Shown here in pieces: positions 8,201 to 25,491 of a stretch of 25,644 nucleotides of DNA. The notes under the pieces are model-generated. The model searched no databases and was not told where the DNA came from. It worked only from the letters and a program-made list of their open reading frames with translations. How positions within the stretch are numbered: position 1 is the stretch's first letter; every line of letters begins with the position of its first letter. The stretch lies in the IMG/VR virus record IMGVR_UViG_3300017752_000137, positions 1-25,644 of that record. One strand, given 5' to 3'. Source of the stretch: a virus. The translations under genes were made by a program, and so were the position numbers.

Positions 8201-10651
8201 GTTAAAGCAATGGACATTGGTCTTAGTAATATGCTAACTCTTTACAATCAAAAGGTTAGAAAATATAAAGATCAAAGTAATACTGTAATTATAGAACGTC
8301 CTAACTATGACATAAGATCTTGGCTTGGAAATGAAAGAGCATTTATTAGGGCAAAACGAGATATAGCAGAACTAGGAATAAAAGAAGGTGATCTAGTTGT
8401 AGCACTTCCTGGAAAAAATGCAAAAGATTTAAAAAAATTTATGAATTTTTTTATTAAAGAAAATCCTATGTACGCAAATACAAAAAATTTTAGTATTGAT
8501 TATGTTACTAAACAAAGACAATTAGTTAAAGATAACGTTAAACTTGTTGATGTGTTTCAAGAAATTCATAAATTTGCAGAACAGACTAACCCTGAAGCAA
8601 TGGCAGCAATTAAAGCTACAGAAATATCTTTTGCTAAAAGAAATAAATCTTTTACTCCAACACTAGAAAGAAAAGGTGTTAGAGGATTTGCTGGAGAAAA
8701 ACCAGGAAGAGAAGGAGTTCAAGATTATTGGAAAGCATACATTGATTATATGGATGGTGGTGTCAGGGCTATTAAAATGATGGAGTGGAAAGATAAAGTA
8801 GAACCTATGCTTTATAATAAAAATTTTTTAAAAGATTTTCCACAACAAATGAAAGTTACTCAGGCTTGGATAGACAATGCATTGGGAAGAAATCCTGGAA
8901 ACATTGCCAAAACTATAGATAATACAATGATTACTGTTGGTAATAAATTTAAAAACAATGCAGATTTTATACCATGGTTGGTAAGAGTAGGTAATAAAGC
9001 AACTCTATATAAAAATTTATTATTTTTTAATATTAGATTTGCCAATGCACAATTGGTGCAACCATTACAAGTGTTAGCCCCAGCTCTAGCAGACTTAAAA
9101 GCTAACTATAATATTAAAGGAGATATAGGTTATTCTTTAATAAATGGATCGTATCTAACTTTTAGAGCTACTAAAGAATTTTCTGAGTTAATAGTTGAAG
9201 CGTCAGAGGCAAAACATAGAACTCTAGATGATAAGCATTTAAGAGAGTTTGGTGTTGACCCTACTAGTGGACGAGATTTGTTAACTAGAAATGAAGACAT
9301 GGCCAGATTAGCTTTAGATGTAGCTACAGGAAAAAATTTAACAGGCATGCTAGAAAGACACAGTAGGCTTCAGGCATTGGCTACATACTATAGCTATCTT
9401 AAAAGTGCTAAATATGATAAAACATACGGTAAAGAAAAAATGTTTGAGCAGGCAATGCGACAAACAGATAATCTTATGGTTGAATATGATGCAAGACATA
9501 GAGCCATAATGTATGGTAATCAAGGAGTTGGCGGAACTCTTGGAAATTTTATGGGTTTGTTTAAAACATTTCAACATAACTATTTTGGTAAGACTGCAAG
9601 ATATATTAGAACTGCAAGAGAGAATGGTGTTAAGGGAATTGAACCTTTAGTTGGACACTTTACAATGCAAATACTAACAGCAGGTCTATTTGGTGTCATG
9701 GCTATAGAACAAGCTGATGCTATTATAGAACATATAAATACAGCAAAATCTAAATTATTTAAATCTCAAGGAAAAATACCTACAGTAACTGAAATGATAT
9801 TAACCTCAGAAGATTTAAGCATTGGAGAAAAATTTGGCATGCCTTCTGTAATAGCAGGCTTTGATATATCTTCTACATTACAGGCACCAGGGCTAAGTAT
9901 CAATGATATCTTTAGTTTTCCAGCTGCATCTTATCTATTTGGTTGGGGTGACAATAGACACAACGGTATACTAGGAGATGGACTGCATTATGCACCTAAA
10001 ATATTAATGGGTACATTTAATGATGTAGACTTTTATAGGTATATGAAAATTGCTCTACCTCCTGTACTACAAGGACCTTTAGATCAGCACTTTGCAAACA
10101 TGCCATGGAGAGAATACCCAGAAGCATTTGGTCTTGTAGACCCTAACAAAACTATACACTACACTGACGATCATGCAACTTTTTATACTAGAGATAAAGA
10201 TAGGTATGTTATAAGAGATCCTTTTAAAGAGATGGCGGGTAAAGTTAGAAGAGATGCTGAAGATTTTATGGCAGTATGGTTTTCTGGTAAAAGTTTTGAA
10301 GAGAGTTTAATAACTAGAGCATTGTGGTCTCAGAAAAAAATAAGCAATCATATTAAAGATATAAAAACTGCACATGTTACTGGAGGAGCAATAGCATTAG
10401 GGCAGGGAGATCAGCCAACTCTTATGTATCATATATTTGCCCTAATGGAAATGAACTACAGTCAAGATGCTGCATTTAAAATGATAACTAGAAGAGTAAA
10501 AAATATGGATGATACTGCTATAAATAGAATTAAAGCATTATCTAAAGAATACAATATGGAAACAGCTGACTTTATAGATTCAGTTATACATAATAACAAT
10601 CTTTCTGGAGATATTATGCCAGGAATTAGATACGGAAATATATCAAAATAA
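5228..10651 (+). CDS. Giant internal virion / DNA-ejection-type protein (1807 aa)
   Basis: The largest gene in the window. It starts with a duplicated 20-residue unit (TPLTMEDFDTPETD, then TPLTIEDFNDPETD at residues about 6-19 and 26-39). Residues about 80-270 are a charged helical domain. Hydrophobic stretches lie at about 282-304 (DLAIIGGATLLTRSPVYGFA), 320-332 and 343-377, and another near 1476-1494 (MQILTAGLFGVMAIEQ). Residues about 380-740 are highly charged, Lys/Glu-rich and probably extended. The C-terminal third is helical with aromatic clusters (GNFMGLFKTFQHNYFG). Size, position before the lysis genes, and scattered membrane-prone segments fit the very large ejectosome proteins of podoviruses (the T7 gp16 role). 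I see no lysozyme-type catalytic motif at its N-terminus, unlike T7 gp16. Its C-terminal stop overlaps the amidase ATG. Confidence 0.75.
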   Translation: MAEITPLTMEDFDTPETDVNKKQPTPLTIEDFNDPETDAILSDDEKINFNTDTIYQIQQKTNSKTIPFIEEQDPDEAAKIEPGKAFLFGWYNGKSHLKSFQAHIFNWADRAADNAIELFGGDARKWEYEYLYGNNFAQQNNILSNAEFNNLDSKLKEREEFKSSLNFTSTKVGTGKLKNAITEPVYTSSLDNPSKQALADLFTERFVGKGRMMPLSKRLGSFVWDKNYRYETLVGLDSYIDLLRERAVELKPNNFKPDYFGRFQPEGVWEKTMAGFGQAPSDLAIIGGATLLTRSPVYGFALVSAIESSDESVGRVAYNTVKGGIEGFIIGKIAHQPTWKRRVGMFGLYGSGNAWMHGGQFDDIVSSGIVMSTFGFMPSGRATDKAGLTDSKSRINEKGEVISVDPKAKDTNVDGVTVIEVNGAERISLDIQKHDAHSVPIKEFVNNKDTSGYKRETEPQIPEVDSRTLAPKEKPVEDMSHLDNMTPIKGKNGTEAAIKRGDEYIPFEVIKEETKSEYRDPMFDIKETKDGKMESIEAPLPVKETISIPRENVIKNGKFLDIYLSLDGKGKLIKVADTTVRSDSFNPRAKEWAIESPETTARRILEKEKALELEKARENILDAKGKPKYKKKKTKEEKPEVKVLDPLGETTLEKWQTVAFADAYGLKLGGDGSVIIKYSDLIRLKNKKDTLGESLNKKDNKWISNAIKEADVVLEKRNTELDKRVNNYNSLLNRSRIGLNDHLTSILEARPTLGDTNVRRHEHLEAAIYENVNVKEPTRKTGEDGRPVETDITPEAAPGKIGMFNQMLKKGLTFVEMMALAPKFIGDQKRNMIMNFGITRTDNIMFRETRALLDKLLYRSEIKYDPKTIDSSKYVVQEGSRIKLPFIIKVMENALGKIVPVRGKTGALTLFEQLYRGGKEQIIQAKQVVDAIRERSFTKEAEARANVKGNKTKEKINKEYLTRNADGTFKYQMSYAEMQSKYKLSDLQIEIVKAMDIGLSNMLTLYNQKVRKYKDQSNTVIIERPNYDIRSWLGNERAFIRAKRDIAELGIKEGDLVVALPGKNAKDLKKFMNFFIKENPMYANTKNFSIDYVTKQRQLVKDNVKLVDVFQEIHKFAEQTNPEAMAAIKATEISFAKRNKSFTPTLERKGVRGFAGEKPGREGVQDYWKAYIDYMDGGVRAIKMMEWKDKVEPMLYNKNFLKDFPQQMKVTQAWIDNALGRNPGNIAKTIDNTMITVGNKFKNNADFIPWLVRVGNKATLYKNLLFFNIRFANAQLVQPLQVLAPALADLKANYNIKGDIGYSLINGSYLTFRATKEFSELIVEASEAKHRTLDDKHLREFGVDPTSGRDLLTRNEDMARLALDVATGKNLTGMLERHSRLQALATYYSYLKSAKYDKTYGKEKMFEQAMRQTDNLMVEYDARHRAIMYGNQGVGGTLGNFMGLFKTFQHNYFGKTARYIRTARENGVKGIEPLVGHFTMQILTAGLFGVMAIEQADAIIEHINTAKSKLFKSQGKIPTVTEMILTSEDLSIGEKFGMPSVIAGFDISSTLQAPGLSINDIFSFPAASYLFGWGDNRHNGILGDGLHYAPKILMGTFNDVDFYRYMKIALPPVLQGPLDQHFANMPWREYPEAFGLVDPNKTIHYTDDHATFYTRDKDRYVIRDPFKEMAGKVRRDAEDFMAVWFSGKSFEESLITRALWSQKKISNHIKDIKTAHVTGGAIALGQGDQPTLMYHIFALMEMNYSQDAAFKMITRRVKNMDDTAINRIKALSKEYNMETADFIDSVIHNNNLSGDIMPGIRYGNISK
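5240..5342 (+). repeat. Tandem 60-bp duplication in the giant gene's 5' end
   Basis: Bases 5240-5282 and 5300-5342 are nearly identical and lie exactly 60 bp apart, in frame. They encode two copies of a TPLT(M/I)EDF..PETD segment in the predicted N-terminus of the 1807-residue protein. Differences include aatgga versus aattga and gatact versus aatgat, so it is a diverged duplication and not an assembly artefact. Confidence 0.85.
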
Positions 10652-11073
10652 TGGAACTAAGAAACAGAACAGACTACATAGTAATACATTGTGCGGCTAC
10701 AAAAGCTAGCATGGATATTGGACTTACAGAAATAAGAAAATGGCATGTAAAAGATAATGGTTGGAGAGATGTAGGATATCATTATATAGTTCGCAGAAAT
10801 GGTGAGGTAGAGTTAGGTCGTTCTCAAAGAGACACAGGAGCCCATGCTTCTGGCTATAATCATAAGAGTATAGGCATATGTATGGTTGGGGGTATGGCTG
10901 ATGATAACTCTGCTGAAAATAATTTTACAGATAAACAATGGACTGCTCTATTAGATTTAGTTAAACAACTAAAAGTTGATTATAATGAAGCAGATATTAT
11001 TGGACACAATGAAATAAGTCAAAAAAAATGTCCATCATTTGATGTACAAAAATGGAAAGAGGATAATATATAA
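10651..11073 (+). CDS. N-acetylmuramoyl-L-alanine amidase (T7 lysozyme-like endolysin)
   Basis: A 140-residue zinc amidase that would cleave the bond between N-acetylmuramic acid and L-alanine in peptidoglycan for lysis. The family signature is complete: IVIHCAATK (zinc ligand H13), GWRDVGYHYIVRRNG (Y43, equivalent to T7 lysozyme Y46), the DTGAHASGYNHKSIGICMVG segment, and IIGHNEISQKKCPSFD with zinc ligands H119 and C127 and catalytic K125 (T7 H122, C130, K128). Its length is close to the 151-residue T7 gp3.5 and there is no added cell-wall-binding domain. There is no signal peptide, so it needs the neighbouring holin. T7 lysozyme also inhibits the phage RNA polymerase; no such polymerase lies in this window. 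Start and stop are TAATG overlaps. Confidence 0.95.
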   Translation: MELRNRTDYIVIHCAATKASMDIGLTEIRKWHVKDNGWRDVGYHYIVRRNGEVELGRSQRDTGAHASGYNHKSIGICMVGGMADDNSAENNFTDKQWTALLDLVKQLKVDYNEADIIGHNEISQKKCPSFDVQKWKEDNI

Positions 11074-11456
11074 TGGGACCACTACTATCAATGCTACCTA
11101 CAATATTAAAAACAGGGGCATCTGTATTTGCTAATAGACAAAAGGCAAAGATACTTATGTCAGATGCAGAACTTCTACATGCACAGAAGATGGCAACGGG
11201 AGAAGTAGAATATCAGGCACAAATTAGACAATCAAATGATCAAGGATACAAAGATGAGTTTGTTCTTATATTAGTATCAGCACCTGTGCTACTATTAATT
11301 TGGAGTGTATTTTCAGGAGATCCTGATATACAAATGAAGTTAGATTTATTCTTTGAGAAGTTTGGCAGTCTACCTTTTTGGTATCAGTCAATTTTTATCG
11401 GTGTTGTTGCATCAATATATGGACTTAAAACAGCAGACATTATGAAGAAAAAATAA
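11073..11456 (+). CDS. Holin candidate (GTA-type multi-TM holin-like)
   Basis: A 127-residue protein immediately downstream of the endolysin, coupled by TAATG. Its N-terminus is mildly hydrophobic (GPLLSMLPTILKTGASVF), followed by a charged amphipathic linker (residues about 20-60), a membrane helix (about 64-81, FVLILVSAPVLLLIWSVF) and a second one (about 101-118, WYQSIFIGVVASIYGLKT), ending in a basic tail (MKKK). This layout, with a KDEF motif before the first strong helix, resembles the three-TM holins of gene transfer agents and marine phages (GTA_holin_3TM-like). Forming the membrane hole that lets the amidase reach peptidoglycan is inferred from topology and from the endolysin-holin neighbourhood. 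Confidence 0.75.
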   Translation: MGPLLSMLPTILKTGASVFANRQKAKILMSDAELLHAQKMATGEVEYQAQIRQSNDQGYKDEFVLILVSAPVLLLIWSVFSGDPDIQMKLDLFFEKFGSLPFWYQSIFIGVVASIYGLKTADIMKKK

Positions 11457-11671
11457 TGTATTGGGTAATTACAGTAATGTTAATGTTTCATGGTACTGAT
11501 GTCTTAGTAGAAAGAGAATATAAACTTAAGTCTTTCCAAGATGATTGGAGTTGTCATGAATTTATTCACGAGAATAAGATTGAGTTACTAAAGCAGCATG
11601 TTATAGACTACCCTAAACAATTAAAAAGTTTTGAATTCTATTGTGAAAACAGATATGCAGAGGAAGTGTGA
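11456..11671 (+). CDS. Small protein with hydrophobic N-terminus, lysis-adjacent
   Basis: A 71-residue protein following the holin candidate with a TAATG overlap. The first 12 residues are hydrophobic (MYWVITVMLMFH) and could be a weak signal or anchor; the remainder is polar with two cysteines (C33 in WSCHEF and C63 in FYCENR) that could form a disulfide if exported. It is not a recognised spanin, and no lipobox is present. It could be an accessory lysis or envelope protein, given its place next to endolysin and holin. Family unknown. Confidence 0.65.
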   Translation: MYWVITVMLMFHGTDVLVEREYKLKSFQDDWSCHEFIHENKIELLKQHVIDYPKQLKSFEFYCENRYAEEV

Positions 11672-12042
11672 AGATATCAGACTCAACACAGATATCATTA
11701 CCTGCTAGAAATCTTTTAGCTATATTGGCTGCAGTTGCAATAGGTACTATGAGTTACTTTACTATTGTTGAAAGACTTAACTCTATAGAGACTACCTTAC
11801 AGTTGATGGAGAAAGACATAACATCAGCTAATCAATTTATAGAAGGTGTCCCCAAAGGCGACATGGTAAGTCCACAGATTCAAGAGCTTTACATGTTGGT
11901 AGAATATTTATCAGGTAATGTAGAAAAATTAAAAGAACAAATGGAACAAGAAATTCCACTGATACTTAAAAATGAAATGATCATACAGTTTCACGAAGAC
12001 AGACTTATAGATCTAGAAGAGAGAAAGAATGGGAATCATTGA
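11668..12042 (+). CDS. Membrane-anchored coiled-coil protein, GTG start
   Basis: A 124-residue protein starting at GTG 11668, overlapping the previous TGA by four bases (GTGA). Residues about 13-32 form one membrane helix (ARNLLAILAAVAIGTMSYFT). The rest is charged and helical with coiled-coil character (IETTLQLMEKDI, YLSGNVEKLKEQMEQEI). An N-terminal anchor plus an extramembrane coiled coil is also the shape of inner-membrane spanins, and it lies two genes after the holin, but there is no partnered lipoprotein gene. Similar short TM plus coiled-coil genes occur in marine phages. I leave the function open. Confidence 0.65.
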   Translation: MKISDSTQISLPARNLLAILAAVAIGTMSYFTIVERLNSIETTLQLMEKDITSANQFIEGVPKGDMVSPQIQELYMLVEYLSGNVEKLKEQMEQEIPLILKNEMIIQFHEDRLIDLEERKNGNH

Positions 12043-12253
12043 AACAGTTATTATACTTAGTTTGTACGTCTACGATGGCGGCAATAAAAATATAGAAGGT
12101 TGGTATCATCAGGACAACTTAAGTACGTGCCTTGCTGCCAAGCGTTTAGCAGAGAGAAATTCAGGTAATCAAGTGCAGTACACTTGTACCCTAGAACAAT
12201 GTGAAATGATAACAGATAAAACTGGTGTTAAGCATTGTGATAAAATAAAATAG
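12029..12253 (+). CDS. Small Cys-containing, possibly exported protein
   Basis: A 74-residue ORF that overlaps the preceding gene by 14 bases, with a purine-rich GAAGAGAGAAAG just before the ATG. The N-terminus is hydrophobic (MGIIETVIILSLYVYDGG), too short to be sure it is a signal peptide. The remainder has four cysteines (C33, C52, C57, C69 in STCLAAK, YTCTLEQC, KHCDK), which would suit disulfides in the periplasm. It sits in a run of small exported-looking genes. Function unknown. Confidence 0.6.
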   Translation: MGIIETVIILSLYVYDGGNKNIEGWYHQDNLSTCLAAKRLAERNSGNQVQYTCTLEQCEMITDKTGVKHCDKIK

Positions 12254-12263
12254 GAGAAGAAGT

Positions 12264-12956
12264 ATGATTAGAAGTATAGCTATAGCTGTAGTAATTACAG
12301 TCTGTATGTTGTGGGCCTTTGGTGCATTAATGGATTCTGCAATGGCAGATGTTACCTCAAGTGGTTCAACTACTAATGATCAGGTAAATTCTAGTGGGAG
12401 CAATACCGCAATCACTGGAGGCTACTCATCTACTTCTACTACAAATTTTCAAGATGGCAGTTCTAGTAATACTACTACAAATAATACAACTAATGCATAT
12501 CAAGGTGATTCTAGAGTAGTGCCTAGTGCATCAGCCCCTGCAATATCTAGTATGTCACAAGACTTATGTACTGTAGGTATATCTGCTGGCGGTCAAACCT
12601 TTTCGTTTGGTGCTAGTCTTGGTATGACTAAGAGAGATCTTAATTGTGAAAGACTTAAACTAGCCAAGGCTCTACATGACATGGGCATGAAGGTTGCTAG
12701 TATAGCCCTTATGTGTCAAGATAGCAGAGTGTTTTCAGCAATGGCAATGTCGGGAACTAGCTGTCCATATTTAGGATCTATAGGGACTGAGGCCCAGGCT
12801 AAGTGGGAAAAATATGGTAAGCTAAGACCAGACTATGAAGAGTATGTTAAGACTTTGCGTATTACAGAACAAATAGACAATGAAATATTAGAGGATATAG
12901 ATGATGGTCAGGTTATTAATTATTCTGGTGGCACTATTAAACTCGGCAATAAGTAA
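12264..12956 (+). CDS. Secreted Ser/Thr/Asn-rich protein with conserved Cys domain
   Basis: A 230-residue protein with TAGGAGAAG before the ATG. It starts with a convincing signal peptide (MIRSIAIAVVITVCMLWAFG then ALMDSAMA, cleavage likely after AMA at residue 28). Residues about 30-90 are low-complexity Ser/Thr/Asn/Gly. Residues about 100-190 form a compact domain with four cysteines (DLCTVG, LNCERL, LMCQDS, SCPYLG) around KALHDMGMKVASIALMCQD. The same CERLKL.KAL.DMGMKVASIALMC segment occurs, as I remember, in other marine phages without assigned function. Export implies action at the host envelope (periplasm or outer membrane). Its 3' end overlaps the next gene by 56 bases. Confidence 0.75.
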   Translation: MIRSIAIAVVITVCMLWAFGALMDSAMADVTSSGSTTNDQVNSSGSNTAITGGYSSTSTTNFQDGSSSNTTTNNTTNAYQGDSRVVPSASAPAISSMSQDLCTVGISAGGQTFSFGASLGMTKRDLNCERLKLAKALHDMGMKVASIALMCQDSRVFSAMAMSGTSCPYLGSIGTEAQAKWEKYGKLRPDYEEYVKTLRITEQIDNEILEDIDDGQVINYSGGTIKLGNK

Positions 12957-14511
12957 AGCAGATACTATTTGTCTACAAGATGTTCCAAATATTGGAGACC
13001 AAACTTGTACCACAACTTATAGTACAGGCACTACAACTACGACAAGTAATTTAATATCAGAAACTTTTAATGATGGCACTTGGAATGGAACTATGTTTCC
13101 TGATAGTTCAGATTTAAATGAGTCAACTTATCTAACAGGTAAAGATGGTAAGTATGCTGAGACTACAATTAACAGCGTAGACCTAATGACTATAAATGAG
13201 TTAAGACAGGGCTTTACTAGTAATTTTACTGCAGATATAAGATGGTGGAATAAGTGGCAATCAACAGTTACTATGAGCCAAATAGCAGTAAGTGGTAATG
13301 GGGACACAACTACACAAACTTTATTACTGACTGATACGACTAATGCTAATTATCAATTTAATAACTATGGTAATACACTTATTGTTTCGCCTAATACTGA
13401 ATACACGCACGGAACATTAACAGCTAGGTTTGATTTTGATGTAGAGCAATCAGCAGGTAATTGGAACTCATATCATAGTGGTGTTGATGTGACCGATCCT
13501 AGTTTAATACTAGATTATACCACACTAACAGAAGTCACTAACACTACTGTTAAATTTTGTTGGGAGTTTACTCCTAGTACTTGTCCTCAAGCAGTTGAAG
13601 ATATAGCAGAAACTATTGTAAATATAGAAGATGATTTAATAGTTATAATACAGGATATAGAGACACCTGAAATTGAAATAGATTTACCCATTATAACATA
13701 TGAGCCTGAGATTATAGAAGTAGATGAACCACAAATTGAAATAGAAATACTAAGTATAGAAACAGTAGATATAATTCCTGATGTAGATACAGTTGAAGTA
13801 TTATCTATACCAGTGGAAACATCTATGATTGAAGAAGAAATTACAACGGAAGAATTAATTGATGCCTACGATACTGAGCCTGTTGTGGAAACAGCAACAA
13901 ATGATGAACTTTCAACTACAGAACCAGATGCCGATCCTATTGAAATGGTGGAACAAAACGATGAACCAATTGAAGAGCAACCCAGTAGCGAAGAAGTTGT
14001 TGCAGAGCAACCAATTCAAGAAACAGATAGTCCAAAACAAGAAGAAATTGTCGAGGCAGATGTTGAAGAATCAGGACCAGAACCTATTGAAGAACCAGTG
14101 GAAGAAGATATAGTTGAGGTTGTAGAAGAAGAGTCAGAAGTATCTGTTGATGTAGTTGCAGTTGAAAAATATATTGATGACAAAGTACAAAGCCAGATAG
14201 AAAAAGTTGAAGCTACTTTATTAGTAGTTAATGAATTAGTAAATAGAGCTATGGTATCTAATCAAGTGGATATATCCAGCTACGGTACTATTAATGCTGC
14301 TATGTTTGACAGTCGTCAGTTACCTAAAGGTAATCAAGATTTTTTTAAACAGATAGTATTAGCAGGATATGATAAAACTATTTATAATAATCAAGTATCA
14401 CTAGTAGCTATAGATCCTGTTGCACAACATAGTATAAAAGTAAATAAAGCTCGTGATAAAACAGATAAAGCATACTATAAATTAAAAGCATTAATGGAGG
14501 CAAGACAATGA
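12901..14511 (+). CDS. Exported acidic Pro/Glu-rich protein of unknown role (536 aa)
   Basis: The ORF starts inside the end of the previous gene (56-base overlap); a signal peptide (MMVRLLIILVALLNSAISKA, cleavage before D21) supports that start. Residues about 45-220 are Thr/Asn-rich and beta-like with four cysteines (C24, C36, C220, C228), possibly a jelly-roll or lectin-like domain. Residues about 233-418 are a long, extremely acidic Ile/Val/Pro/Glu segment (PEIEIDLP, EPIEEPVEEDIVEVVEEE), with Pro-Glu repeats like periplasm-spanning or stalk-like regions. Residues about 420-536 are helical and basic at the end (KARDKTDKAYYKLKALMEAR). It may be an envelope-spanning or surface-presented factor made late in infection; this is inferred from export and composition only. 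Confidence 0.75.
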   Translation: MMVRLLIILVALLNSAISKADTICLQDVPNIGDQTCTTTYSTGTTTTTSNLISETFNDGTWNGTMFPDSSDLNESTYLTGKDGKYAETTINSVDLMTINELRQGFTSNFTADIRWWNKWQSTVTMSQIAVSGNGDTTTQTLLLTDTTNANYQFNNYGNTLIVSPNTEYTHGTLTARFDFDVEQSAGNWNSYHSGVDVTDPSLILDYTTLTEVTNTTVKFCWEFTPSTCPQAVEDIAETIVNIEDDLIVIIQDIETPEIEIDLPIITYEPEIIEVDEPQIEIEILSIETVDIIPDVDTVEVLSIPVETSMIEEEITTEELIDAYDTEPVVETATNDELSTTEPDADPIEMVEQNDEPIEEQPSSEEVVAEQPIQETDSPKQEEIVEADVEESGPEPIEEPVEEDIVEVVEEESEVSVDVVAVEKYIDDKVQSQIEKVEATLLVVNELVNRAMVSNQVDISSYGTINAAMFDSRQLPKGNQDFFKQIVLAGYDKTIYNNQVSLVAIDPVAQHSIKVNKARDKTDKAYYKLKALMEARQ

Positions 14512-14777
14512 TTGAAAAATTACAAAAGGTAGGGCTACTCATAACTTTAATATGTACAATTGGAGGTGGGTTTTACACCTGGGGTACGTTTAACCAAAGA
14601 CTAGACGCTATAGAAAACAAAAAATTTACAGTTAATCAAACAGTAGATCTTACAGAAGTTAATAAAAGTATAGAAGGACTAAAGGCAGACATTAAAATTA
14701 ATGGTGCTGCATTAGACTATCTTGAGGCTAAATTAGAAGAACTAAAAATACAATTAAATAATCCATTACTTAACTAG
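14508..14777 (+). CDS. Small membrane-anchored coiled-coil protein
   Basis: An 89-residue ORF with a four-base ATGA overlap with the preceding stop and a GGAGGCAAGACA site just upstream. A short N-terminal membrane helix (about residues 7-26, KVGLLITLICTIGGGFYTWG) is followed by a charged helical region (NQRLDAIENKKF, IEGLKADIKINGAALDYLEA). Its shape parallels the 11668 and 1021 genes. Function unknown; a companion of the exported acidic protein is possible because the two are translationally coupled. Confidence 0.65.
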   Translation: MIEKLQKVGLLITLICTIGGGFYTWGTFNQRLDAIENKKFTVNQTVDLTEVNKSIEGLKADIKINGAALDYLEAKLEELKIQLNNPLLN

Positions 14778-14785
14778 AGAACAAA

Positions 14786-15967
14786 ATGCCAGACACATTA
14801 GCACCAAAAAAAACTATGACGCAAAGAGAGTTAGATAATAAGCTAACTCCTATAGCAGAAAAAGTAAAAGAAGGCCCATTGGTTACAGGAGAGATAGTTA
14901 AAGACTATTTGTTTAAGCCTTTACCTTTATTACAAGATGAAAGAATATCTGTTAAGACTAAAGAACAGCAACAAACTCAAGCATCTGCAAAAGAAGGACT
15001 TGTAAAAAGACCTGAAGTTGAAGATACTGGAGATATAGAAAATGTAAGTACCGTTCAACAAGGTGAGGTAAAACCTACACTAGCTGCACGGCCTGTTATG
15101 TATGCGGCTGATGGTATGGATGATAAAGAAATAAATAATCCTATAGTAGTAGGAGAAAAAGGTCCAGAAATGTTAGTGCCTACAGGAAATGGCAGATTTT
15201 CTATACTTCCTAACGATGTAGTTAATGGGCTTATGGAAAAAACTAAAACTCCTACACCTGAATTGTCGTCAACTGTATCTATGGAAGATACATCTACTGG
15301 TTTTATGACAGATGAACAAAGAGAAGATGTTGTGTATCTATCAGATAATCCTAATATAACAGGGACAGCTGCACAAATAACTGGAGTTGGTACTCTTTAC
15401 ACACAGGCTTTAATTAAAAGAAAATTTAATAACGAAATTGTACCAACACTTAAAGGAAAAACTTTAGATCTTCCTAAAAATATTGCAGGTGATGATATAA
15501 GTGGATCTCTTAGAGATGCGTATCAGCATGGGTACATATCAGGATTTACTAACTTACGAGATGGCACACTACAAAGTGAAATTATGGCTCAAGGAAGAGA
15601 AGTTCCAATATATAGTCTTTTCAGAAAATTAGATCAAGCTGAAGCTAAAGATAATACCATGGATATGAATAATAATAAAGTAGGATTTGCTGTAGCTAAT
15701 GAAGTAAGAGAAGAGCTAGGCTATAAGGGAAAAACAATACCATCCAATAAAATAAAAGAGGCGGAGATGTTATTTAATTTAAGATTTAATGAGAGATACC
15801 TTGATGAAATAGCACTATATGCTGCTGGAAAAGGAAAAAAGTATTCCGATAAGGTTTCAAAATTTGATCAGTATGCACAGGCTTTTTCAAGAGAGAAGCC
15901 TGATCGTATGATTTTAGAGTTCTCTCCTGAATATATAGAAAAAGAAAAAGCAAAACTAAATAAATAA
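14786..15967 (+). CDS. Late protein with VGEKGPE motif and DUF6973-like C-terminal pattern
   Basis: A 393-residue protein with GAGAA before the ATG. Residues about 1-110 are polar and probably disordered. Residues 122-145 carry VGEKGPEMLVPTGNGRFSIL then PNDV, a motif typical of phage tail proteins, especially the C-terminal ends of tape-measure proteins. Residues about 240-300 hold DAYQHGYISGFTN (D244, H248) followed by DQAEAKDNTMDMNNNKVGF (E286, D293, N295-297). The spacing recalls the D-A-x-R-H-x-Y ... M-D-x-x-N-N-x-V-G pattern of DUF6973-type domains; this is a pattern judgement, not a proven match. It is the last gene of the late block; its TAA directly abuts the stop of the convergent gene. 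Confidence 0.7.
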   Translation: MPDTLAPKKTMTQRELDNKLTPIAEKVKEGPLVTGEIVKDYLFKPLPLLQDERISVKTKEQQQTQASAKEGLVKRPEVEDTGDIENVSTVQQGEVKPTLAARPVMYAADGMDDKEINNPIVVGEKGPEMLVPTGNGRFSILPNDVVNGLMEKTKTPTPELSSTVSMEDTSTGFMTDEQREDVVYLSDNPNITGTAAQITGVGTLYTQALIKRKFNNEIVPTLKGKTLDLPKNIAGDDISGSLRDAYQHGYISGFTNLRDGTLQSEIMAQGREVPIYSLFRKLDQAEAKDNTMDMNNNKVGFAVANEVREELGYKGKTIPSNKIKEAEMLFNLRFNERYLDEIALYAAGKGKKYSDKVSKFDQYAQAFSREKPDRMILEFSPEYIEKEKAKLNK

Positions 15968-20566: not shown

Positions 20567-22627
20567 TCATAGAGTGTCACCTTTCTGTTGAGTTAACTCC
20601 TGCATATCAAGCCAATTGTATCCTATCTTAGTTTCTGTGTCAAGTGGCACATTAAAGTCTAAGCCATAATAAGATTGAAGAGAATCTATAACTTCAAACG
20701 TAGCAGCATCTAGTATATCTGCCATAGTATCTTCTTCTCCAGGATATATATCTGCAACAATAGAATCATGTACTGTATTAATAAGCAAACTCTTAACCCC
20801 CTGTTCTTTCATAAGGTTATAGGCATTAATACATGCGATAGGAACTATATCGGCAGTTGCAAAACCCTGTACTGGATAGTTTTTTATCTGAGTTGAATAG
20901 CTTGATCCCCCCCAGGCCTGTCTCTGTGCGTAAGGAAAGGCATACTCTCTTCCAGATGGAGTCTTAATTTTTTTAAACTCAATAGCACTACTTTGCAAAG
21001 TTTCATGCCACTTTGCTATATCTTTATACTTATCTAAGAATGCTTTGTAATATCTTTTCTCATCCTCTGTACCAGACATACCACCATATAGTGGCTTAAA
21101 CGTATGTGCTTTAGCATCCTGCCTACTAACACCTATAGTATCTGCAGTAAATTGGTGTACATCTACACCATCATCTATATCTTTCATGCCCTGCTTATCT
21201 TGTGCTAAAAATACAGCAGTTCTAAACTCTAGTTGAGAAAAATCTATCTCCATTATTTTACCACCTTTAAATCTAGATGTAATTACTTTACGAATAGGAA
21301 AGGTATTGCCTCGTGGTTGATTCTGAAAGTTAGGATCACGACTTGATAGTCTTGCTGTTGCTGTAACGCACTGCATAAACTTAGGATGTAGTATGCTATC
21401 TGCATTTACATGGTCCCTCATACCATTTACAAATGTGTTTAAGTATGTGTCTATTGCATTGTATCTTATAATTAAATCAATGAATTCTCTTAGCTCTCCT
21501 GTTGCTCGTGACGCTATCTTTTTAAGAGTATCTCTATCTGTTTTAAATCCTCCATCAGCTACCTCAGATACACCTACAGGTGTCTGCTCAAAACCTGCAG
21601 TACGATTTAACTCTGTATATATTAGTCCTGTACCCTCACACACATCACACTTAGATAAGTTTTTATATCTATCACCATTAACTTTAACTCTTTGTATAGT
21701 TCCATCACCACTACATTTTTCACATTGAGTTGCCATAGTTTTTTTAATTATAATTGTATTAAAATTTACAGCATCTTTAAATTTAGATTTAGAAAAGATA
21801 GGTCGTTTCTTTTTTTTCTTAGTGGCTTTATCTATTCCTATATTAAACATCTGTGCCCATTTCTTTTTATCTGTAACTTTTCTAGAATATATAAGCCAAG
21901 ACAGTTGCTCTCCGCTACTAGGATTGATAGGGGTATCACCCATTTGCTCCCATATTATAGTCTTAATCTTTTGTGCTATAGTACCAAACTCTTCTTTAAA
22001 CTCTTGCTCAACTAGATCAAGTCCAGGAACATCTATGTGTATTCCATTCATCTCCATATTGCCTAACACAGGTAAGAACTCATTCATCATCTTAACAGAT
22101 TTAAGCAATCCTTTATTGTCTGCCTTCTTAAAGTCTGCCATCTGTGAATCAAACAAAGCCCTAGTAGATATGACATCTTGTCTGCCATACTCTTCAATAA
22201 TATCTACTGGTATATTCTCAAAAGATATTTTATCTTTCATGTATTGATCTACTGCATCAGATTTTTGTGATATACTTCTACGTTTACAAATCTCTTTTAG
22301 AGACAATGGCTTACGCAAACCTCTAAGCAATACATACTCACCGATCATTGTATCATATAGTCTGCCATCATATTTAAATCCAGACTCTAGTAGCCATACT
22401 AAATCAAACTTAATATTGTGACCAACTAATAGTTTTGTTCTATCTAGTATAGCTTGTACTGCTAAATGATTAGACTTAATATCATGCTCATTATGATTAT
22501 GATTAAAAAAATAGTAATCGTCATTGACTCCTATACTAACTAAAAAATTATGGGGATTAAAAGGTAGTGGGTCTACCTTACCATCTACAATTTGAAAGCT
22601 AGTCTCTACGTCTAATACTGTAATCAT
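20567..22627 (-). CDS. polA: Family A DNA polymerase with inserted DnaJ-type zinc finger
   Basis: A 686-residue replicative polymerase. The 3'-5' exonuclease domain is complete: VLDVETS (D6, E8), HNIKFDL (D75) and YGRQDVIS (Y147, D151). The polymerase domain has TARLSSRDPNFQNQPR (425-439), motif A EIDFSQLEFR (D462), the O-helix RQDAKAHTFKPLYGG (R503, K506, F510, Y514) and motif C NTVHDSIV (D621). F510 corresponds to E. coli Pol I F762. The motif C residue after the Asp is Ser instead of the usual Glu. Between the domains, residues 302-334 hold CEKCSGDG and CDVCEGTG, a four-cysteine DnaJ-central-domain-like zinc site (C302, C305, C327, C330), preceded by a Lys-rich stretch (KATKKKKKRP). This is the layout known in phage HMO-2011. 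It is coupled to helicase by ATGA. Confidence 0.97.
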   Translation of the reverse strand: MITVLDVETSFQIVDGKVDPLPFNPHNFLVSIGVNDDYYFFNHNHNEHDIKSNHLAVQAILDRTKLLVGHNIKFDLVWLLESGFKYDGRLYDTMIGEYVLLRGLRKPLSLKEICKRRSISQKSDAVDQYMKDKISFENIPVDIIEEYGRQDVISTRALFDSQMADFKKADNKGLLKSVKMMNEFLPVLGNMEMNGIHIDVPGLDLVEQEFKEEFGTIAQKIKTIIWEQMGDTPINPSSGEQLSWLIYSRKVTDKKKWAQMFNIGIDKATKKKKKRPIFSKSKFKDAVNFNTIIIKKTMATQCEKCSGDGTIQRVKVNGDRYKNLSKCDVCEGTGLIYTELNRTAGFEQTPVGVSEVADGGFKTDRDTLKKIASRATGELREFIDLIIRYNAIDTYLNTFVNGMRDHVNADSILHPKFMQCVTATARLSSRDPNFQNQPRGNTFPIRKVITSRFKGGKIMEIDFSQLEFRTAVFLAQDKQGMKDIDDGVDVHQFTADTIGVSRQDAKAHTFKPLYGGMSGTEDEKRYYKAFLDKYKDIAKWHETLQSSAIEFKKIKTPSGREYAFPYAQRQAWGGSSYSTQIKNYPVQGFATADIVPIACINAYNLMKEQGVKSLLINTVHDSIVADIYPGEEDTMADILDAATFEVIDSLQSYYGLDFNVPLDTETKIGYNWLDMQELTQQKGDTL
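20615..20643 (-). promoter_or_regulatory. Candidate promoter in the polymerase 3' end, TTGACA-17-TACAAT
   Basis: TTGACA (20643-20638) and TACAAT (20620-20615) with a 17-bp spacer lie inside the last codons of the polymerase gene on the - strand. It would give a second, longer transcript for the ssDNA-binding and exonuclease genes. Because it overlaps coding sequence (DTETKIGYN), the match could be chance. Confidence 0.4.
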
Positions 22628-23832: not shown

Positions 23833-24605
23833 AGTATCTCCTTTATCATTGCTGGTCTATAATATTTTAGGTCGTCTTTAAGTATAACTACCCTTGTCTT
23901 AAGTTTCATACTACTAAGTTCTTTTGCAATGTCAAATGATTTTGTAGTTGCGTCTCTGTCTAGTGCCACAATTACTTCTTTGTATTTACTTTGTATGATG
24001 GGTATAAATGTTTCTGGTAAACTTGTACCCATAAGTGCAACACCTGCAAAGTCTTGTGATACTGCACAAGCAGAGGCACAGTCCTCTACCAATACAGCCA
24101 CATCACCTTCACCACATATGTAGGGATAATCTTTTCTGCCATACACATACCACTTGGGCATCATGTCTGAACGCATGGCTCTACCTACACCACCAATTAT
24201 ATTGTGCTTGTCATCTTGTATCATGAACACAGCTCTATGATTCTGTGGATCATATTGTATGTTAGCATTACCCTGATTGTATGCCTCAATACAGTTGTTT
24301 CTGCTTAAGTATTTTGCTACTGTGTGAGTAGAATGTCCAGGCTGAAAGTGGCTGGGTACTTTCCAATCTATTTTATCTTCTGATTTTTTCTTTACCATAT
24401 AAGTAATATCCTCCATTGTTTTGTCTGTGTCAATAACTCCTTTAGCATTACAAGAAGCACTGAAGCAATACCATTTCATCTGTCCACTTTCTTTGGTTAG
24501 CTGTAAGGTATTGTTATGAAAGCAAAAAGGACAATCCATTCTTATGGACTGTCCTGTATGTATGGGTATGTTTTGTATTACTTCTTTTTGTTCTCTGTAA
24601 TTCAT
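23814..24605 (-). CDS. DNA primase (zinc finger plus TOPRIM)
   Basis: A 263-residue primase similar in layout to the primase half of T7 gp4. Zinc ribbon: CPFC (C25, C28) and WYCFSASCNAKG (C47, C52). The RNA-polymerase-like region contains IIGGVGRAMRSDMMPKWYVY (137-154). TOPRIM motifs: VLVEDCASA (E174) and VALDRDAT (D216, D218). It makes RNA primers at the fork for the helicase and polymerase encoded just downstream. There is no ribosome binding site before the ATG at 24605, and the promoter at 24612-24640 places the predicted transcript start at or within a base or two of this ATG, so the message may be leaderless. A later ATG (M23) is unlikely because it would sit almost on the first zinc cysteine. 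Confidence 0.92.
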   Translation of the reverse strand: MNYREQKEVIQNIPIHTGQSIRMDCPFCFHNNTLQLTKESGQMKWYCFSASCNAKGVIDTDKTMEDITYMVKKKSEDKIDWKVPSHFQPGHSTHTVAKYLSRNNCIEAYNQGNANIQYDPQNHRAVFMIQDDKHNIIGGVGRAMRSDMMPKWYVYGRKDYPYICGEGDVAVLVEDCASACAVSQDFAGVALMGTSLPETFIPIIQSKYKEVIVALDRDATTKSFDIAKELSSMKLKTRVVILKDDLKYYRPAMIKEILCKNDS

Positions 24606-24611
24606 GCTTTG

Positions 24612-24640
24612 CTTATACCATGATTGGTAGCTTATGTCAA
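24612..24640 (-). promoter_or_regulatory. Sigma70-type promoter for the primase operon, TTGACA-17-TATAAG
   Basis: A perfect -35 TTGACA (24640-24635) and -10 TATAAG (24617-24612) with a 17-bp spacer on the - strand. Transcription would start at about 24605, the first base of the primase ATG. It would drive primase, helicase and polymerase. Confidence 0.7.
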
Positions 24641-24645
24641 GTGAT

Positions 24646-24706
24646 TATGAAGCTTGCGCCCCAGATTTCTCTAAAAGAATCACACCTGGGGCTTGCCCCC
24701 TTCATA
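24646..24706. repeat. Long nested hairpin at the edge of the non-coding block
   Basis: TATGAAG (24646-24652) pairs with CTTCATA (24700-24706); inside it CCCCAG (24659-24664) pairs with CTGGGG (24686-24691); inside that GATT/AATC-type pairing continues the stem. The arms are separated by similar internal-loop sequences (cttgcg and cttgcccc). There is no T-run, so it is not a standard terminator. It lies at the 3' end of the predicted non-coding transcript and just before the primase promoter. Confidence 0.75.
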
Positions 24707-25125
24707 GCTGCGCGCGTTTACCTCCAGCCAGGGGGCGTGGATCACTTTCTCTCGAGAACAGTATTCGCGATCCCGATTGTACTCTTAAGCCTCTCGCATA
24801 CACCGAGACCAGGTGGTAGGTAGCGAACCTAACGCTCTCTAAAAGTACAATCGGCATAGCGATTGTGGGTGGGGGATGCCTGTGCCGTTGATGGCTAGTA
24901 CCTCGGATATACTTTAAGAAAAACTAGCAATAATTCTTAACGATTATATTTAGACCCGTCCCCCATAATTTGGGTGGGGGTGCCCAGTAGGCTTCAGATT
25001 GTAACTGGCTTTCGGTACCGTAACCTGCACCCCCATAATGTGGGGTAGGCAACGACCAAGCCCACCCCTTGAATACGAACACTACCTCTGTAGCATGCTT
25101 TGTGTTTTACTATGCTCGTAATCAA
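24646..25125 (-). ncRNA. Candidate large structured non-coding RNA (or origin region)
   Basis: The only long gene-free stretch (24606-25164), markedly richer in G and C than its surroundings. A TTGACA-17-TAATAT promoter points into it. Besides the long hairpin at 24646-24706, it has: an 11-bp helix (24773-24783 with 24844-24854) enclosing two small hairpins (TAGGT-TCGCT-ACCTA and TCTCG-GTGTATG-CGAGA); a competing 7-bp hairpin (24847-24853 with 24860-24866); a 7-bp stem (24914-24920 with 24934-24940) whose loop pairs with 24894-24899, an H-type pseudoknot; an 8-bp helix (24976-24983 with 25027-25034); and CCCCCATAAT copies 70 bp apart (24960, 25030). These helices imply selection for RNA or DNA structure. 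It is not a recognisable tRNA or tmRNA. Strand and ends are inferred from the promoter and hairpin. Confidence 0.45.
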
Positions 25126-25131
25126 TATGGT

Positions 25132-25160
25132 ATATTAACACTTCTTTGGCTCTGTGTCAA
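25132..25160 (-). promoter_or_regulatory. Promoter reading into the non-coding block, TTGACA-17-TAATAT
   Basis: A perfect -35 TTGACA (25160-25155) and -10 TAATAT (25137-25132) with a 17-bp spacer on the - strand, located right after the stop of the WYL_2-like gene. No gene follows for over 500 bp, so its product would be the structured RNA, possibly reading through to primase. Confidence 0.55.
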
Positions 25161-25164
25161 GTCG

Positions 25165-25491
25165 TTATATTAAATTACTAACACTAGATAGTTTTAACTT
25201 TCTACCTTTAGGTGTCACCTCAACAGTATACATATTACCATTGAATTTAATCCATTGTAATCTAGATAGAGATACATTGATATACTTAGAGTTAACTGTG
25301 TCCCATACAATCATGTAGTCTTTAGGGTCAGTAGTTCTGACACCACCCTTAAGATGTTTAGTAACATTGAACTTACAGTTAGCAACTCTAGTGCTATCGT
25401 CTTTCTTTATAAAGCAGGCAGAGAAAAACTTTGCTCCTACTCGCTTTCTTATTTCACCTTCAAAGTCTAGGCGTTTTATTGATTCAGTCAT
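25165..25491 (-). CDS. WYL_2-like, Sm/SH3-type small beta-barrel protein
   Basis: A 108-residue protein with AAGGAGG spaced well before its ATG. The pattern RVGAKFFSACFIKKDDSTRV, then TKHLKGGVRTTDPKDYMIVW, then INVSLSRLQWIKFNGNMYTV resembles the WYL_2 family (Sm-like SH3 beta-barrel) of small phage proteins: F.KKD.S.R..N, KGG.....Y..V.D, then R...I...G. Such proteins are thought to bind nucleic acid or ligands, but the function is not established. It is the last gene before the structured block. Confidence 0.7.
   Translation of the reverse strand: MTESIKRLDFEGEIRKRVGAKFFSACFIKKDDSTRVANCKFNVTKHLKGGVRTTDPKDYMIVWDTVNSKYINVSLSRLQWIKFNGNMYTVEVTPKGRKLKLSSVSNLI

Follow-up and report, generated by a model that had tools for sequence, protein, structure and literature searches.

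An exported gene cassette

We analysed the 25,644-base virus record IMGVR_UViG_3300017752_000137 (the window; gene coordinates are window positions) and, within it, a cassette of three genes known here as A (12264), B (12901) and C (14508). These genes encode an exported cysteine-domain protein, a large exported protein and a small, putatively membrane-anchored protein, respectively, and they close a run of six consecutive open reading frames (ORFs) at 11456-14777, all present where a preliminary description of this DNA had placed them. Two further genes of the run are referred to as D (11668) and E1 (12029), and L-numbers (L011, L023 and so on) are locus labels of homologous stretches compared with the window.

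Export signals were scored with our own scripts, using the best 19-residue hydropathy near the N-terminus with a cut of 1.6 together with a cruder cleavage-site score. The best N-terminal 19-mers reached 2.53 for A, 2.17 for D, 1.83 for B and 1.48 for C, and a lower group comprised 11456 (1.22), the neighbouring gene 11073 (1.13) and E1 (1.06). At the 1.6 cut, A, B and D pass (3/6 genes of the run) against 0/26 other genes in the window (Fisher P 0.004); counting C too gives 4/6 against 0/26 (P 0.0004), with the lower cut picked after the values were known. The preliminary description had assigned a signal peptide or N-terminal helix to all six genes. This held for A, B and D, and C falls just under the cut, but the signal is weak in 11456 and E1, whose export is doubtful because by eye each has a short hydrophobic start with neither a basic n-region nor an AxA site. 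The cleavage-site score places 11073 (3.56) above D (3.11) and C (2.89), so the export evidence is not clean for the anchors. Judged from their N-termini, A and B look like proteins with cleavable signal peptides and C and D look like membrane anchors. The other membrane helices in the window, in gene 1021 (residues 52-70) and in 11073 (63-81), both lie away from the N-terminus. Family-wide, a hydrophobic 15-mer near the start was found in 86/88 A proteins, 69/73 B proteins and 70/74 best C-profile matches, the last including some D-type proteins; 66 proteins make up the clean C cluster.

The linkage of the three genes was counted from both ends. For the count from A we used the best 80 of 594 relatives among 600 uncultivated viral stretches, a sample that for this reason leans to the window's kin and includes near-identical loci (L019/L021/L035 and L067/L070); the profiles were built from the window and from phage records, both outside the count. 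Where A is followed by at least 3.5 kb of sequence, B comes after A in 54/54 loci and C after B in 54/54, the remaining 26/80 having been excluded for too little sequence after A. In 44 of these 54 loci no more than 400 nt separate A from the start of B; in the other 10, B starts farther on and D, E1 or small membrane proteins are often inserted between the two. Among the 74 loci having B, it overlaps A or begins at most 60 nt past it in 47. For the count from C, profiles were made from the window and L013-L092 and applied to L122-L198; four of these loci (L172, L179, L181 and L191) share contigs with the first set, and the re-found L016, L017 and L048 were counted once only. B lies directly upstream of C in 60/63 loci and A lies upstream in 34/34 loci with room, after 14/77 and 43/77 loci, respectively, were left out because the upstream sequence was short. 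In the three exceptions a 79-82-residue ORF precedes C and a large ORF precedes that; L194, the only one of them extending farther upstream, has A (E 1e-57). On these counts the linkage and order of A, B and C are obligate. Loci and ORFs are not independent, and P values throughout are descriptive. Conservation as a unit, which the preliminary description had raised for the whole run, applies strongly to A-B-C, whereas the first three genes come and go. The coordinates are collected in Table 1.

Table 1. Genes and protein regions at and next to the six-gene run, in window positions.
Feature	Position	Strand	Evidence
Endolysin, N-acetylmuramoyl-L-alanine amidase	10651..11073	+	Pfam Amidase_2 E 5.2e-21; phrog_822 amidase E 1.4e-62
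Small membrane protein, holin candidate	11073..11456	+	phrog_2524 (unknown function) E 4.1e-24; helix 63-81
71-residue two-cysteine protein, weak hydrophobic start	11456..11671	+	Best PHROG match E 0.3
D, 124 residues, N-terminal membrane helix 16-34, rest probably helical	11668..12042	+	phrog_20984 E 3.1e-16
E1, 74 residues, 4 Cys, weak hydrophobic start	12029..12253	+	phrog_24646 E 8.8e-8
A, exported Cys-domain protein, 230 residues	12264..12956	+	phrog_20531 (unknown function) E 8.8e-16
B, exported protein, 536 residues	12901..14511	+	Frame overlaps end of A by 56 nt
B residues 21-218, predicted beta-sandwich like sugar-binding domains (Fbs1/Fbs2, CBM16)	12961..13554	+	AlphaFold2, VIA-align
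B residues 253-417, acidic Pro-containing predicted disorder	13657..14151	+	pLDDT under 50; 36% Asp+Glu, one Lys/Arg
B residues 418-536, helical C-terminal region	14152..14508	+	AlphaFold2, low to middling confidence
C, 89 residues, N-terminal membrane helix, probably helical rest, NPL tail	14508..14777	+	Start overlaps B stop by 4 nt

Features of the A, B and C proteins

Protein A has a signal peptide to about residue 28, a Thr/Asn-rich part at about 35-90 and a cysteine domain at about 100-195; by eye its cleavage site is AMA, and the script's top-ranked site follows residue 18. The cysteine domain already noticed in the preliminary description is borne out by the family, since Cys 102, 128, 151 and 167 are present in 67/67 aligned homologues. 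Median pairwise identity is 52% in the Thr/Asn/Ser/Gly-rich part and 64% in the cysteine domain, and AlphaFold gives little confidence to the former despite its good conservation. The model as a whole is only partly confident (mean predicted local distance difference test score, pLDDT, 63.7), and thus we do not claim a new fold. The best Foldseek match had E 1.6, VIA-align returned nothing at Z 2 or above, and a sequence search of solved structures gave no relative at E 1. By profile, A belongs with the PHROGs family in Table 1, to which that database assigns no function.

Some variants of A were also found. The C-terminus of A is hydrophobic in 8/21 loci on bacterial or archaeal genome contigs (L098, L099, L103, L106, L107, L108, L110 and L112) compared with 0/78 loci on viral contigs, so A may be membrane-anchored in those eight. 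The A signals of L042 and L074 carry a lipobox-like stretch, which would fit a spanin-like past; A went unflagged in the other 79/81 sources. In Roseobacter phage CRP-810 (L011:5558-5818) an 86-residue ORF with a lipobox by eye lies just upstream of A, adjoined by an 80-residue membrane-helix protein. This ORF matches the A profile (E 7e-6) and, weakly, phrog_20531 (E 0.007), and is perhaps an outer-membrane relative of A.

The head of B (residues 21-218) was modelled by AlphaFold2 as a beta-sandwich, mostly at high pLDDT. In VIA-align the predicted model matched Fbs2 (8zuh_A; Z 13.2, root-mean-square deviation 3.1, 152 residues aligned) and CBM16 (2zey_A; Z 11.5, deviation 3.2, 132 residues), and other jelly-rolls, tail spikes among them, scored at Z of about 10-11. 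On this model the head is predicted to have a carbohydrate-binding-type beta-sandwich fold. At E 0.001, a set of 56 B proteins gave no match to a CBM family, and one of them matched the unrelated family Chol_subst-bind (E 6e-4). The acidic stretch reported earlier for B is present at residues 231-420 (190 residues; 35% Asp+Glu, 8% Pro, one Lys/Arg), and in 73 homologues the 100 consecutive residues richest in acidic side chains contain 19-53 Asp+Glu, with a median of 43. The head is the most variable structured part of B, with a median pairwise identity of 25% versus 33% for the C-terminus. A C-terminal domain shared by SAR11-type B and other proteins in the B slot was considered and rejected (hhalign probability 3.8), and hhalign of C against B gave nothing.

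Both C and D have one N-terminal membrane helix by hydropathy, that of C just below the cut, and a remainder that is probably helical. C ends in NPL or NPM plus at most six residues in 64/66 members of the clean cluster, and in the second locus set 76/77 tails carry NPL, NPM or NPF. The C profiles of the SAR11-type and other-B-slot groups align solely across this 13-column tail. In addition, the C profile reaches the D proteins of phages HTVC010P and HTVC019P at E 1e-5 to 2.4e-5, which may reflect distant kinship or shared coiled composition only. None of A, B and C has a significant match to a family with an assigned function.

Distribution among phages

Using tblastn, A was detected in 11/50,697 phage records, and among uncultivated viral contigs its relatives are encoded in at least 594 of the 600 stretches examined. 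A, B and C occur in this order in Mosig (filed under Kyanoviridae), HTVC033P, Baldr, HTVC023P, HTVC202P and the Autographiviridae genome S28C10, and in HTVC202P annotated tape measure and minor tail proteins accompany the cassette. The cassette thus occurs in pelagiphages of different backbones. The Pelagibacter phage HTVC033P has the window's order of amidase, phrog_2524-type protein, small genes, A, B and C. In HTVC115P the order is A, B, D, E1 and a small ORF, after which comes a C-type protein whose tail reads NPLSNMK. In the roseophages CRP-207 and CRP-810 and in record MW202675, A is followed by a different large ORF and by a C-profile match ending in NPL or NPM. A DNA search with the whole cassette gave only short matches, covering 3-8% of the query, in three pelagiphages.

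We also found 24 loci on bacterial or archaeal genome contigs, mostly titled metagenome-assembled genomes of many phyla, which we read as stray phage contigs. Among the matches listed, the slot after A is often filled there by other large ORFs. At L108:2970-4245 and L110:4971-6234 the B-slot gene is separated from C by additional small ORFs that begin with a hydrophobic stretch, and one of those in L108 matches phrog_37374 (unknown function; E 4.6e-12). The by-eye labels pilin-like, chaperone-like and nidogen-like for extra ORFs of L103, L108, L110 and L111 were dropped, and ten extra-ORF proteins from L097, L106, L108, L110 and L111 had no Pfam support.

D (phrog_20984) was found in 42 phage records, 37 of them Pelagibacter phages. 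D and E1 adjoin a small membrane protein or endolysin in stretches of HTVC019P, HTVC010P and HTVC027P, in which the A and B profiles find no match. In HTVC027P, gp14 (L119:3456-3989), a 177-residue cysteine protein, lies beside D, E1 and a peptidase M15; by eye its signal peptide is much like that of A in L071, and its mature part differs.

Lysis genes near the cassette

Lysis neighbours were sought with homemade holin, endolysin and spanin profiles within 2.5 kb in 31 loci with sufficient flanks; 49/80 loci were left out because the flanks were under 2.5 kb or C was not found after A. A holin-, endolysin- or spanin-type gene was present in 22/31 loci (21 with a holin or endolysin and one with a spanin-like gene alone). 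In a first control, from which only A was removed and which therefore still includes B genes, 63/187 ORFs of at least 200 residues had such a neighbour, and in a second, cleaner control that excludes cassette and lysis genes the count was 15/79. Some profile seeds were first seen beside the cassette, so that the enrichment is favoured. Endolysins alone, with profiles still partly seeded beside the cassette, were found in 15/31 loci compared with 9/79 control ORFs.

The type of endolysin near the cassette varies and includes amidase, lysozyme, peptidase M15 and GH19-like enzymes. In Mosig, a three-transmembrane holin next to A scores above the Pfam gathering score. L104 and L110 have phrog_3427 holins, L111 and L012 have phrog_181 endolysins, and in both L023 and L028 a phrog_812 Rz-like spanin precedes A. 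Lysis neighbours are also seen in loci with divergent B.

Comparison with spanins and other envelope systems

The two-component spanins, such as Rz/Rz1 of lambda and LysB/LysC of P2, share several features with the cassette: it often lies beside holin and endolysin genes, by hydropathy C and D would each have a single N-terminal helix and a probably helical remainder, and one partner has conserved cysteines. From its N-terminal helix, C resembles an i-spanin in layout. On the other hand, A (230 residues) and B (536 residues) carry signal peptides, L023 and L028 have an Rz-like spanin besides the cassette, and neither an outer-membrane lipoprotein nor a spanin family match was found in the window. 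On the plus strand of the window, the stretch beginning 4 kb before A and ending 4.5 kb after it gave no ORF with a lipobox. The lipobox rule, which asked for a basic n-region and a consensus lipobox, was strict and overlooks the L023 spanin-like lipoprotein; it flagged an ORF in 13/81 sources, two being A itself (L042 and L074). Matches to spanin families were negligible, at E 0.1 for D to phrog_739 and E 0.076 for C to NCBIfam LysB (13.3 bits against a cut-off of 92.75). For the window we accordingly rejected a two-component spanin, as neither a lipoprotein partner nor a family match was found, and also a unimolecular spanin, as A, B and C have no lipobox and no C-terminal helix. The comparison with spanins concerns working, not membership. 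PMC6139136 lists 91/677 phages in which no spanin is recognised, so that the existence of unrecognised systems can be expected.

Tiny lipobox lipoproteins of about 51-55 residues stand beside the cassette in several loci, upstream of A in L065, L066, L072, L077 and L081 and also in L046 and L056. The one in L066 weakly matches the Cor exclusion family (E 0.01). Superinfection exclusion families in PHROGs gave no match for A, B or C, nor did PADLOC, where D matched DndD at E 0.002 over 66 residues.

The predicted fold of B residues 43-207 is like that of the Fbs1/Fbs2, CBM16 and CBM22 domains. Unlike these, B has no CBM family match, shares only about 10-14% identity with them and has an acidic linker and helical end fused to the head. 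A further comparison is the partial curli (CsgG/CsgF) operon of pelagimyophages, for which cell aggregation or "sibling capture" has been proposed (PMC7029224), and PMC9004378 suggests that curli-like genes bear on lysis in a related methylophage. As in the cassette, these are exported proteins in SAR11 phages. However, the cassette consists of other genes and is also found beyond myophages, and the curli profiles of Pfam and NCBIfam gave no match for A, B or C of the window.

Other features of the window

On the plus strand, genes that are taken to be structural precede the amidase at 10651, which is followed by 11073 and the six-gene run. Relatives of 11073 (phrog_2524) adjoin endolysins in several loci, and a Pfam scan of this protein gave no holin match; we treat it as a holin candidate. 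The gene after C (14786-15967), of 393 residues, has family matches only at noise level in PHROGs and Pfam, and by position and by eye its product is perhaps a virion protein. The minus-strand ORF at 20567-22627 is DNA polymerase-like and by eye contains a CxxC-type insert resembling the DnaJ zinc region. HTVC033P is treated as an HMO-2011-type phage in PMC9038755; we infer that the window belongs to the same type, an assignment helped by the DnaJ-like insert. At 24001-25000 the GC content is 0.42, against 0.30-0.40 in the rest of the window, and only short ORFs lie at 24606-25164, between an ORF ending at 24605 and one starting at 25165. The latter region is possibly a non-coding, foreign or assembly piece.

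Possible roles of the cassette

Based on these analyses, we suggest that A-B-C is an exported envelope complex, tethered to the inner membrane and acting late, most likely in an outer-membrane or periplasmic step of lysis and release of virions, and we give this reading a probability of roughly 0.4. It is supported by the hydropathy-based export signals on A, B and C, by their linkage and order, by the predicted domains and by the proximity of lysis genes in most loci. In such a complex the three proteins would bind one another. C would remain in the inner membrane by its anchor and expose its helical stretch and NPL tail to the periplasm, and the helical C-terminus of B may pair with C. B would traverse the cell wall by means of its long acidic disordered part and, with its sugar-binding-type head, grip a glycan of the envelope, which might be peptidoglycan or lipopolysaccharide. 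A, presumably held by disulfide pairing of its four cysteines, would organise or lock the assembly. Once the endolysin has removed the wall, the tether could pull on or destabilise the outer membrane. The late action presumed here takes no timing from PMC12753301: its transcriptomes concern HTVC022P and HTVC027P, neither of which was listed by tblastn with A, and the A and B profiles were negative in the HTVC027P stretch.

Several observations weigh against this role in lysis. No recognised lysis gene was found within 2.5 kb in 9/31 loci. In Baldr and HTVC202P the cassette precedes the terminase, at a distance of about 11 and 19 kb from the annotated lysozyme or peptidase M15, and in Mosig an annotated GH108 gene lies about 24 kb from it. 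The Rz-like spanin in L023 and L028 indicates that the cassette does not simply replace spanins, and we have rejected the idea of a universal spanin substitute. In the window neither A nor B has a lipobox, so there is no known outer-membrane anchor. In addition, the variability of the B head would also fit recognition of a changing surface, and the small number of phage records with A indicates that most phages manage without it. The preliminary description had proposed that these proteins could modify the envelope, block superinfection, help lysis in a spanin-like manner or be carried on the virion; the export signals and lysis-gene linkage fit the envelope and lysis proposals, but spanin membership did not hold in the window.

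The main rival is that the cassette remodels the cell surface or excludes superinfecting phages, a role that we regard as possible though rather doubtful. Here a lectin-like B at or under the outer membrane, assembled and anchored by A and C, would mask receptors or glycans from rival phages or make cells stick together. A sugar-binding-like head that is also the most variable structured part of B would suit this role, as would the distant loci that keep A and C while the slot between them holds other large ORFs, the tiny lipoproteins with their one weak Cor match, and the partial curli genes of pelagimyophages. However, the enrichment of the cassette beside holins, endolysins and spanins weighs against this explanation, and A, B and C have no significant match to any exclusion, defence or secretion family.

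It is unlikely that the link to lysis reflects shared genome position only, the cassette being a host-takeover or nutrient-related envelope module with another task. The loci with no lysis neighbour and the placements before the terminase or beside primase and nrd genes would be expected on this explanation, but the enrichment over control ORFs holds for endolysins alone and lysis neighbours persist where B is divergent. BFVD and PDB matches show similar beta-sandwich heads in phage tail fibres, but it is very improbable that A-B-C are virion parts or decorations (tail or fibre) merely carrying hydrophobic starts, as the signal peptides make carriage on the virion unlikely, the hydrophobic N-termini are retained in nearly all A, B and C matches, and the trio spans different families and layouts (Kyanoviridae, Autographiviridae and HTVC033P, and one phage with tape measure and minor tail proteins).

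In the open-licence literature, as far as its text was available, including PMC9038755, PMC6811365, PMC9004378, PMC7029224 and PMC10504331, we found no description of the A-B-C cassette, which may have been published elsewhere. SAR11 phages are reported to be very abundant, the HTVC023P type alone accounting for about 7.6% of virome reads according to PMC12753301, and the SAR11-phage literature that we found says little on how the host envelope is opened or altered. We tentatively propose that A-B-C could represent a new kind of phage envelope machine, in which a constant pair, A and C, exports and holds an interchangeable, glycan-gripping B, and which occurs among marine phages of different backbones, where it may tear the outer membrane in lysis or re-coat the infected cell. 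The fixed exported trio provides named genes in cultivated phages (gp46, gp45 and gp44 of HTVC033P; gp45, gp46 and gp48 of HTVC023P; 00202, 00201 and 00200 of Mosig) with which ideas of lysis, exclusion and surface display can be tested.

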